This document shows, one piece after another, positions 21,502 through 27,321 of a DNA stretch of 34,441 nucleotides (positions within the stretch are counted from its first letter, which is position 1; every line of letters starts with the position of its first letter). A program made the translations under genes and the position numbers. The notes beneath the pieces are model-generated. The model ran no database searches, had not been told where the DNA came from, and worked only from the letters and a program-made list of their open reading frames with translations. Source of the DNA: Candidatus Poribacteria bacterium (lineage in GTDB: Bacteria; Poribacteria; WGA-4E; WGA-3G); NCBI GenBank assembly GCA_022827885.1, contig JAJEIP010000139.1:1-34441 (forward strand). Direction: 5' to 3'.

Positions 21502-22098
21502 TCATCGTCGTCGGTCATCATCGTCATCATCGTCATCATCGTCGTCATCGTCATCGTCGTCATCGTCGTCATCGTCGTCATCGTCATCATCATCATCATC
21601 GTCGTCATCGTCATCATCGTCATCGTCGTCATCATCATCGTCGTCATCATCGTCATCATCATCGTCGTCATCATCGTTATTGTTTTGCCGCTCCTGTTGG
21701 TTAATCCAATCCCTAAAGAGTTGAATCTGTTCATCAGGCAACTGGGGACCCCCAGGAGGCATTCTGCCTGAAACGATTTCTTCAATAATATCACTGCTTT
21801 GAGCATTGCCAGGTTCAAATACATCCTCTCCACCCGCTATAAAAGCCTGATATGAGCTAAAATCCAGGTTGTCAGGCCCTCCGGCGACGTGGCATCCAGC
21901 AAAGGCACATCTTGCTGTGAGAATGGGCAAAAGGTTTTGTTCAAAAGAAGTTTGAATGTTATTTCCGTTAGCCGGAGCCATAGGCGCAGTCTGATCATTT
22001 TCGGGTAGTAACGGATTGCTGGGTTGAGAATCACACCCGAACAAGGAAAATAACAATGCTACGATGAGTAGAAAGAACCGTTGTGTATTCATAACCAT
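21502..22098 (-). CDS. CX4CH-haem lipoprotein with poly-aspartate tail (paralogue A)
   Basis: A 198-residue lipoprotein. The signal peptide MVMNTQRFFLLIVALLFSLFGC gives lipidation at Cys22. A small cytochrome-like domain (about 50-135) contains CAFAGCH (64-70), a C-x4-C-H haem motif, and RMPPGG (112-117), a possible axial Met. The tail is a run of about 54 Asp residues ending in RRR. The final RRR appears to come from a one-base shift at 21511-21514; without the extra base the Asp run would continue to a TAA at 21492-21494. AGAGGTG supports the ATG at 22098. Paralogues B (22731) and C (25416) lie nearby. Function is inferred: redox carrier or metal collector at the envelope. Confidence 0.8.
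   Translation of the reverse strand: MVMNTQRFFLLIVALLFSLFGCDSQPSNPLLPENDQTAPMAPANGNNIQTSFEQNLLPILTARCAFAGCHVAGGPDNLDFSSYQAFIAGGEDVFEPGNAQSSDIIEEIVSGRMPPGGPQLPDEQIQLFRDWINQQERQNNNDDDDDDDDDDDDDDDDDDDDDDDDDDDDDDDDDDDDDDDDDDDDDDDDDDDDDDRRR
21514..21675. repeat. Trinucleotide repeat encoding about 54 Asp
   Basis: A 162-base run of GAC/GAT codons (read on the minus strand), inside the lipoprotein gene at 21502-22098. Both codons are mixed, so it is not a pure microsatellite, but it is still prone to replication slippage. A stray base at the 3' edge shifts the frame. Confidence 0.95.
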
Positions 22099-22321
22099 AA
22101 TAACACCTCTTTTTAAATTTAAAAATTTAACGCCACTTATGCAAGGACTTATGCAAAGTGAAGAAAGAAAAGGAAACCTATTTTGCTGAAGAGTCCCTAT
22201 TTCATTGTATTTAACCCTTGAATTTCGCTTATCAGGTGATTGGATTGTAAGAAGAAATGCATAAGTCCTATGAAAATAGATTGAATAGTTTTGTAGGGGG
22301 TTCAAATCCAATTCCCTGTTA

Positions 22322-22359
22322 AATAAGCAAGTATCGTGCCAATAAGCAAGTATCGTGCC
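22322..22359. repeat. 19-bp tandem repeat, two copies
   Basis: AATAAGCAAGTATCGTGCC occurs twice in immediate succession (22322-22340 and 22341-22359), with no mismatch. It lies in the intergenic region upstream of lipoprotein A. It could be a binding-site array or a recent slippage duplication. Confidence 0.9.
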
Positions 22360-22667
22360 AACCAAAAAAATAGCTGGATATTGCTTATTTTGCCGCTTTA
22401 TTCGACTTCTCTGAAAAAAAATGGACAGATATGTTCAAAAAATGAACAGAATAACAAAATTTGTGAGCTGTACAATAGGTAGGCCAGGAGAAAACTCGGA
22501 CAGTTCACCAATACCTATTTTGAATCCCGGACTACATACCCTGAACGCCTAAGTCCTTAGTTGTGCGAAGATTGTGGAAATCCGTTCTATTGAGGCAAGT
22601 CGAATTTTGGAACAGACGACCGCATTGGAACTGGCACCAATTTTGCATACGTCTAATTTACAATCTA

Positions 22668-22695
22668 TTGAGATTCTTGTTATTCACGTTATTAA
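22668..22695 (+). promoter_or_regulatory. Probable promoter of lipoprotein B
   Basis: TTGAGA (22668-22673) and TATTAA (22690-22695) with a 16-base spacer. The transcript would begin near 22702, about 29 bases before the ATG at 22731. Confidence 0.4.
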
Positions 22696-22730
22696 ATTTC
22701 TATTTTTTGTGAAAGTGAGAAGTGACTGTT

Positions 22731-23153
22731 ATGTATACAATGAAGATAAAAATAGTGTTTGTACTTTTTGTTGGCATAGCGTTCTGTGTTTACGGATGTG
22801 GCAAAAGTTTTGACGACTCCGCTACTGAGTTGGGGGTGACATTCGGTGAGCCCGCGGTTGGCGATCGGCAGAATCCATCTTTTGAAACTGATATTTCACC
22901 TATTCTTACACAGCGATGTGCTCTCGCGGGTTGCCATGTTGCCAACGGGCCAGAAGATGTTGATCTCAGGACTTACGCAACGCTTCAAATGGGAGGTGAA
23001 CATGGTCCTATAGTTATTGCGGGTAACGCGAAGGAAAGCGAACTTGTTGAAGAAATTGTTAAGGGCAAAATGCCTCCAGACGGATCCCCATTGGAAGTCT
23101 CCGAGATCCAACTCATTATTGATTGGATTAACAGTGGCGCGAAACGGAACTAA
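22731..23153 (+). CDS. CX4CH-haem lipoprotein without acidic tail (paralogue B)
   Basis: A 140-residue lipoprotein. The signal peptide ends in VYGC with Cys23 as the lipid site. The small cytochrome-like domain has PILTQRCALAGCH (C63-x4-C68-H69), then GGEHGP, and KMPPDG as a possible axial-Met segment, ending in IDWINSGAKRN. It is the same domain as in paralogues A and C but lacks their Asp- or His/Asp-rich tail. The ATG at 22731 is preferred; ATG at 22740 is an alternative that keeps the full signal peptide. It lies directly upstream of the TonB-dependent receptor on the same strand (165-base gap). A periplasmic or outer-membrane electron- or metal-handling role is inferred. Confidence 0.8.
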   Translation: MYTMKIKIVFVLFVGIAFCVYGCGKSFDDSATELGVTFGEPAVGDRQNPSFETDISPILTQRCALAGCHVANGPEDVDLRTYATLQMGGEHGPIVIAGNAKESELVEEIVKGKMPPDGSPLEVSEIQLIIDWINSGAKRN

Positions 23154-26066: not shown

Positions 26067-26190
26067 AATAACTCCTTCTAATTGTGTTTTTAAAGATTGT
26101 AAGGCTTCTTTCTAATTCCTAATGATAGATATTGTAGAGATGCACGAAAAAGCCTACTAACCACGCACCACTTCTGTTAATTAGGAATAA

Positions 26191-26219
26191 AGAATAACCC
26201 ATTTTGATAATACTGTCAA
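26191..26219 (-). promoter_or_regulatory. Promoter of lipoprotein C
   Basis: On the minus strand, TTGACA (26214-26219) and TATTCT (26191-26196) with a 17-base spacer. The transcript would start near 26184 with a leader of about 118 bases before the ATG at 26066. Confidence 0.7.
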
Positions 26220-26371
26220 GAAAAATTTCAGAGCCATTCAGTTTTCGATTTTTTATCCGTTTTATGTGATGGGATATAGCGACCCAAGAGATCGCTTCTA
26301 CAGGAAAGAGATCTCAAACAGAATCGAAATTATTGGAGAACTGAATGCCTCTGCACATAAGAGAATTTTCA

Positions 26372-26400
26372 TTGACTCTATTTCTCCTTCATGCTAAACT
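26372..26400 (+). promoter_or_regulatory. Promoter of the cytochrome gene, leaderless geometry
   Basis: TTGACT (26372-26377), 17-base spacer, TAAACT (26395-26400) with an extended TGC in front. The ATG at 26407 begins after six bases, so the message would start at the start codon. No Shine-Dalgarno is present. Confidence 0.7.
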
Positions 26401-26408
26401 AAAAGCAT
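26391..26408. promoter_or_regulatory. 18-bp palindromic operator over the cytochrome -10 box
   Basis: ATGCTAAACTAAAAGCAT matches the operators at 34345 and 34388 at 15 of 18 positions (the latter) and has the same ATGCT/AGCAT ends. It covers the -10 box and the start codon, so a bound protein would block transcription. Confidence 0.5.
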
Positions 26409-27321
26409 GAAAGTCTTCATCCAAATCGGGCACGGTGTTGTGGGTGCTGCTGTTATCTCAGGTCTATGTCTATGGCAGGCAGGCAGTTTCGGTGAAGCAA
26501 GACACACTCTCAGCATTATCGGTGCGATTGCTATCCTTATAGCCAGTCTCTATCTCTTCCGAAGCCGTTGGATTCGGTGGGGCAACCGGCAAACATGGCT
26601 CAAATACCATCAACGACTCGCGTCTTTGGGCTTGTGCTTGGTGCTACTGCATTCTGCTTTCCAACCGCTTGCATGGCACTCATGGCTGACGTTTTTGCTC
26701 ACCCTATCGAACTTAGGAACCGGTATCGCCGTGAGTCTAACATCACGTAGGGCGCGCCGGATCCTGCTCCGATGCCATCTTATCCTTGCCCCCATTCTAC
26801 TTATTAGTATTGTGTTTCACGGACAAAAAAAACTGGAGCACGACGAATTCTTTCCACTCACGAAAGTTCACGATGTGCCTTGTGCGAGATGCCATACACC
26901 TGAACGCTTTCTGTTTTATGTTAATACAACCCTTCCTCAAGATCTGGACACATCAGACACTATTCCTGAGGACTTGCACTGGTGGTTCTTACAAAATGAA
27001 CGTAGGGTACCCGAGACTGCTCCTATCTCAATCAAGGAAACAGGGAATGCTTGGACAGTAACCGACACAAAAAATAAACACACCTACTATATCCGGAAGG
27101 TCACAGATAAAATTGCCATCTACGCCGATTCCGATTATCGGAGTTACACCTGTCTCAAATGCCACGTGCATAACACAGAAGAAATTCAGTTAGCACACGA
27201 GCTACACGGTGTTGCTGATTTCCACAGATGTCTCGTCTGCCACCAGACCGAAATTGACGGCACGCGTTATGGACGACAGCGATTTGATTGGGAATATGCA
27301 CCACATCGAAAACGGAACTAA
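26407..27321 (+). CDS. Membrane cytochrome with three CxxCH haem sites
   Basis: A 304-residue inner-membrane protein. About four membrane helices lie in the first 140 residues (roughly 8-26, 35-52, 72-88 and 124-140), with His at 9, 33, 68, 82, 124 and 138. These are suited to b-type haem binding, as in cytochrome b561- or ferric-reductase-like domains. A periplasmic domain (about 145-304) carries three c-type haem motifs: CARCH (159-163), CLKCH (249-253) and CLVCH (275-279). It likely passes electrons from quinol to periplasmic acceptors. The neighbouring CX4CH lipoproteins are candidate partners. I know no named family with exactly this layout. Its promoter carries an 18-bp operator. Confidence 0.82.
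   Translation: MKVFIQIGHGVVGAAVISGLCLWQAGSFGEARHTLSIIGAIAILIASLYLFRSRWIRWGNRQTWLKYHQRLASLGLCLVLLHSAFQPLAWHSWLTFLLTLSNLGTGIAVSLTSRRARRILLRCHLILAPILLISIVFHGQKKLEHDEFFPLTKVHDVPCARCHTPERFLFYVNTTLPQDLDTSDTIPEDLHWWFLQNERRVPETAPISIKETGNAWTVTDTKNKHTYYIRKVTDKIAIYADSDYRSYTCLKCHVHNTEEIQLAHELHGVADFHRCLVCHQTEIDGTRYGRQRFDWEYAPHRKRN

Follow-up and report, generated by a model that had tools for sequence, protein, structure and literature searches.

The window analysed here is a 34,441-nucleotide stretch of DNA from a Candidatus Poribacteria bacterium, contig C45 of a 5.13-Mb genome. It contains five neighbouring genes (positions 21502 to 27321) that encode three lipoproteins with a CX4CH motif, a TonB-dependent receptor and a membrane cytochrome with three CxxCH sites. 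A sequence-only reading had joined all five into one envelope system for redox chemistry or metal acquisition. Our comparison with related genomes points to a smaller conserved unit, probably an array of lipid-anchored c-type cytochromes that combine a CX4CH haem site with a PSCyt1/FoxE-type fold and carry electrons while tethered, many of them with a polyanionic arm. The three lipoproteins and their putative haem sites are:

21502-22098, minus strand: CX4CH lipoprotein 1, with a lipobox-bearing signal peptide (C22), one predicted haem c domain and a poly-Asp tail
21889-21909, minus strand: candidate haem site of lipoprotein 1, C64-AFAG-C69-H70, with the putative axial Met, M113, at 21760-21762
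22731-23153, plus strand: CX4CH lipoprotein 2, in which the acidic tail is absent; PSCyt1 match of 31.6 bits (cut-off 22)
22917-22937, plus strand: candidate haem site of lipoprotein 2, C63-ALAG-C68-H69, with the putative axial Met, M114, at 23070-23072
25416-26066, minus strand: CX4CH lipoprotein 3, with a D/E/H-rich tail; PSCyt1 match of 35.5 bits
25857-25877, minus strand: candidate haem site of lipoprotein 3, C64-ALAG-C69-H70, with the putative axial Met, M115, at 25722-25724

These are stand-alone lipoproteins of 140-216 amino acids with lipobox-like signal peptides (LFGC, VYGC and MLGC), and each carries an MPP(G/D)G segment about 43-45 residues downstream of CX4CH. Only about 0.0005 CX4CH motifs would be expected by chance in a 140-residue protein of such composition; since the motif is also invariant in close homologues, its presence lies far beyond chance. 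Across 80 unique domains from the first loci, both cysteines, the histidine, the methionine and one tryptophan are invariant. When all loci fetched are considered, 155 of the 159 distinct full-length homologous domains keep CX4CH, mostly in the form C-A-x-[AS]-G-C-H, and every one of these 155 has a Met 39-53 residues past the His. The remaining four, three Chloroflexi proteins and one paralogue in the window's genome, have CX2CH at the same position. The family therefore shows the Cys-Cys-His proximal motif and the conserved distal Met of a class I-type c-type cytochrome, with CX4CH spacing. The domain occurs in 79 of 85 Poribacteria genomes; beyond the phylum, genome contigs were scanned with a single pattern biased to close relatives. 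Viral contigs gave only two weak matches, and the plasmids scanned yielded just ordinary c-type cytochrome and PSD1/DUF1553 proteins.

An AlphaFold2 model of the CX4CH domain, built from 41 sequences, reached a predicted local distance difference test (pLDDT) score of 91.7 and a predicted template modelling score of 0.84, and the predicted structure has a cytochrome c fold. Its top structural match in the PDB is the di-haem cytochrome FoxE (Z 12.2, 2.1 Å over 92 of 95 residues). The hydrazine synthase haem domain comes second (Z 7.5), and other cytochromes c score Z 2-3. A profile search with the CX4CH family also matched FoxE (E 2e-9). FoxE of Rhodobacter ferrooxidans SW2 (5mab, 5mvo) shares the MPPG segment bearing the Met, but it carries two haems per chain, at CIICH and CTTCH, whereas our domain has one predicted haem, a CX4CH site and a lipid anchor. 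The window proteins do not fit the pattern of the FoxE iron oxidase, a di-haem chain with two CxxCH sites encoded beside foxY and foxZ: each has a single predicted haem site, and the neighbours scanned are unrelated genes. The haem c domain of the hydrazine synthase alpha subunit (5c2v) shares the pattern F..DI.PIL...C before the haem site, but uses CxxCH and is part of a large enzyme.

Lipoproteins 2 and 3 both pass the gathering cut-off of PSCyt1 (PF07635), with which they share the His and Met ligands, the MPP segment and a conserved WI segment near the C-terminus. PSCyt1 domains have CxxCH in place of CX4CH and belong to large multidomain PSD proteins, in contrast to the stand-alone lipoproteins with poly-Asp tails described here. 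Large PSCyt1-like proteins with CxxCH are encoded elsewhere in the window's genome. In this phylum-wide cytochrome family the change to CX4CH is systematic, within a fold whose usual haem motif is CxxCH.

CX4CH sites have precedents among cytochromes c, as the sequence-only reading had noted. Attachment of haem c at such a site was demonstrated by mass spectrometry in MmcA (PMC11024163), and cytochrome c3 has two CX4CH sites (PMC10454114). Both of these proteins are multihaem, in contrast to the class I-type single domain with Met found here. The window's genome encodes CcmF/NrfE-like, CcmC-like and CcmD-like proteins; ResB was looked for in the genome and is absent. The conserved Cys, Cys, His and Met, the CxxCH homologues, the PSCyt1 match, the FoxE-like predicted fold, the Ccm-type genes and the CX4CH precedents together make covalent haem with His/Met ligation the best reading; the CX4CH motif very likely holds haem c covalently, with Met as axial ligand. 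This agrees with the earlier proposal that the MPP(G/D)G segment could supply the axial Met. The same four residues are also a copper ligand set, and the tails are acidic and in some members His-rich; the proteins might then be metallochaperones that bind a non-haem metal, for example Cu or Zn, through Cys2-His-Met. We consider this very improbable, given the homologues with CxxCH at the same position, the PSCyt1 and FoxE-like similarities and the Ccm-type genes.

The poly-Asp tails are the strongest anomaly of the locus and had been missed in the earlier reading. Two lie in the window:

21514-21675, minus strand: 54 consecutive Asp codons (GAT and GAC mixed) in lipoprotein 1
25419-25655, minus strand: Asp/Glu/His-rich C-terminal tail of lipoprotein 3

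In lipoprotein 1 the run is followed by three Arg at the C-terminus, and it is the single run of at least 15 Asp codons in the whole genome. Among 61 genomes, runs of at least 12 Asp gave 27 matches, 24 of them in CX4CH open reading frames (ORFs); of the other three, two fall in an ORF that consists of a tail alone, at the edge of a contig, and one in a lipoprotein adjoining a CX4CH gene. In 48 of 108 distinct CX4CH proteins the tail is 30 or more residues long and no less than 40% Asp+Glu, and both poly-Asp and Asp/His tails are seen on CX4CH lipoproteins of relatives (L100-L173). We know of no described cytochrome family with poly-Asp tails. Within the limited set of papers searched, nothing relevant turned up on poly-Asp cytochromes or lipoproteins or on an acidic cytochrome c1 domain, which is weak evidence of absence.

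Could the tails be functionless microsatellite expansions? They consist of GAY (GAT/GAC) repeats with 9- and 24-bp periodicity, and their length varies among orthologues. The runs nevertheless hold the Asp frame and mix GAT with GAC (970 to 845), while GAA and GAG together are rare (161). The bodies of the same genes differ, with 753 Asp codons (GAT 530, GAC 223) and 619 Glu codons. This difference in codon usage points to selection for Asp acting on the tails on top of repeat expansion. Moreover, the tails recur in several lipoprotein subfamilies, and such runs are almost absent elsewhere in the 61 genomes. We therefore regard a purely functionless origin as unlikely.

Taken together, the data suggest the following scheme. 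Array members would be single-haem c-type cytochromes, with up to three haems in relatives and with family members in most Poribacteria genomes; the multihaem forms would be products of domain duplication. The domain would be a class I-type PSCyt1/FoxE fold in which CxxCH gained two residues, the His would serve as the proximal and the Met of MPPG as the distal ligand, and haem would be attached by the Ccm (System I) machinery. The CX4CH domain also offers a compact way to test which substrates System I cytochrome c maturation accepts. The lipid anchor would tether the N-terminus, and many members end in a poly-Asp or Asp/His tail. We infer that the lipoproteins are most likely tethered electron carriers in the envelope, and the tail may be a polyanionic arm to which cations (metal ions or Ca2+) or a cationic redox partner would bind. 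In a bolder version, the lipoproteins would sit in the outer envelope as a dedicated class, and the tail would gather metal cations beside the FoxE-like CX4CH haem. Such a tethered device would oxidise or reduce metals and at times pass metal on to a TonB receptor; we think this quite unlikely. If the tails do bind metals or minerals, they would provide a testable link from Poribacteria to extracellular redox or mineral chemistry.

Several points count against tailed, haem-bearing electron carriers. The AlphaFold2 model is haem-free, and lipoprotein 1 taken alone falls below the PSCyt1 listing and matches through the family profile only. Slippage of the GAY repeats could have produced the tail, in which tandem units of 9 and 24 bp are visible. 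Finally, tail-less lipoproteins exist in other groups (the 22731 type and the C96 type), so that the tail is dispensable for the core function.

The remaining genes of the region and its flanks are:

18710-21346, minus strand: PPDK_N / phosphoenolpyruvate-utiliser protein, conserved left flank of the array
23319-25349, plus strand: TonB-dependent receptor, plug and barrel, an array-linked paralogue
26407-27321, plus strand: membrane cytochrome with three CxxCH sites (tri-haem gene), a second genomic copy
27516-28664, plus strand: heptosyltransferase-like protein, conserved right flank of the array

We confirmed all five ORFs at the positions first proposed, and the motifs, lipoboxes and gene order were found as described. 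The promoters did not hold up, as 12 were found against 12.0 expected in shuffled sequences, which is chance level. To judge the proposed cassette, we inspected array synteny in 16 genomes, namely the window and 15 relatives of the same genus. The framework of PPDK-like gene, lipoprotein array and heptosyltransferase-like gene is kept in all 15 relatives, with one to several CX4CH domains per array. One array lipoprotein (L100:4219-5928) has three tandem CX4CH domains, and two-domain forms are common among relatives.

The TonB receptor passes the Pfam cut-offs for both plug (PF07715, 29.5 bits, cut-off 23.9) and barrel (PF00593, 64.4 bits, cut-off 27). NCBIfam does not name its substrate: the iron-siderophore and haem receptor subfamilies score 26-32 bits against cut-offs of 223-324. 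Within the array, the TonB gene is intact in two of the 16 genomes (the window and G032, at 86%) and eroded in two more: in G018 a 3' remnant of 378 bp is left, at 88% DNA identity, and G001 has two fragments of about 110-125 bp. The gene is absent from the remaining arrays inspected. Lipoprotein 2, in turn, is intact in G001 and G009, which lack an intact TonB gene, truncated in G018 and reduced to a 104-bp piece in G032, the one relative whose array holds an intact TonB gene. Since each survives intact without the other, the two genes decay independently. The piece in the G032 array adjoins an IscB-like protein (L103:11336-12364; NF040563, 97 bits, cut-off 175).

In a phylogenetic tree, the TonB copies of the window and G032 form an old clade, with every core copy of the genus in its sister group. 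Acquisition from another family (f4) was ruled out, as the tree places the two copies beside the genus core and away from f4. The core copy adjoins a gene for a 147-residue protein, and none of the 28 core loci checked has a CX4CH neighbour.

CX4CH genes do adjoin TonB receptors at three separate loci. Besides the array in the window, a CX4CH lipoprotein lies 18 bp upstream of a second receptor type (C13 type) in the window's own genome (G000), G017 and G026, at 3 of the 30 loci of that receptor, and a CX4CH/TonB cluster is found in another family (G043, G044 and G046). With 15 PF00593 matches in the window's genome, two TonB-adjacent loci in one genome are unlikely to arise by chance. For this recurrence we keep as an alternative an optional co-operation, in which the lipoproteins are surface or periplasmic partners of TonB receptors, recruited repeatedly for capture or reduction of metal or haem. 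The short spacing at the C13-type loci would suit such a partnership, but neither type of TonB gene is found near most CX4CH loci, among them the C96 type and the arrays in other genera, and we judge it rather unlikely. Window-type and C13-type receptors are themselves encoded side by side in a distant relative (G051:C44:12775-16608) and in several f4 genomes, which suggests that the two are an old pair.

The same adjacencies speak for the stronger idea of one envelope redox or metal-uptake system, in which the membrane protein reduces, the lipoproteins shuttle and the TonB receptor imports. Against it stand the patchy TonB gene, its loss independently of lipoprotein 2 (G032 versus G001 and G009), the lack of a CX4CH neighbour at the 28 core TonB loci checked and at 27 of the 30 loci with the second receptor type, and the tri-haem gene, present in the array only in the window. 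We consider a single system very unlikely. The earlier reading had itself set conservation of the neighbourhood as a test, and beyond the lipoproteins and flanks it was not conserved in related genomes. On synteny we reject a five-gene cassette: the five genes do lie side by side here, but only the lipoprotein array is kept. By this comparison, the receptor and the tri-haem protein stand beside the lipoproteins mostly by chance. In the favoured scheme of tethered cytochromes, the unit would need neither the receptor, whose gene is an old accessory of patchy occurrence, nor the tri-haem protein, a second copy that was inserted. A tempting operon reading is thereby corrected, in that both genes appear as patchy or inserted passengers within one array.

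The tri-haem protein, with three CxxCH sites and several conserved His within predicted helices, is widespread (51 of 60 relatives). Its gene lies in the array solely in the window's genome, whose other copy (C117, 87%) sits where the genus normally has it, close to the gene of a 664-residue membrane protein and ribosomal genes. At no other locus inspected does the gene have a CX4CH neighbour, and no gene accompanies it consistently in more distant genomes. Homology between the window copy and the core locus extends from about 26337 to 27403, and the gene is bracketed by a 20-nucleotide inverted repeat:

26228-26353, no strand assigned: palindromic element of 126 bp, similar to a miniature inverted-repeat transposable element, with 18-nucleotide arms that are 89% complementary
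27409-27428, no strand assigned: inverted copy of the element terminus, 95% complementary to 26228-26247

Seven recurrences of the terminal sequence were counted in the genome and none in the control. The best reading of these features is that the tri-haem gene of the window is a second copy, inserted here.

Two invariant His pairs of the protein, 68/82 and 124/138, are each spaced 14 residues apart, which suggests two b-type haems as in ferric-reductase-type membrane domains; the protein may conduct electrons across the membrane through two b-type and three c-type haems. Searches of Pfam and NCBIfam gave no family at cut-off, the NapC/NrfH quinol dehydrogenases included (NrfH 19 bits against 134), NapC/NirT was seen weakly in one homologue, and a PDB profile search returned nothing useful. 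A single-sequence model (pLDDT 51) was not used.

Outside the conserved flanks, a VWA-domain protein (17511-18650) and a DUF4159 protein (29742-31220) sit on opposite sides of the array. The DUF4159 protein is 95-98% identical across the arrays of the relatives inspected. In our own reading, both proteins start with a TonB-like N-terminal segment.

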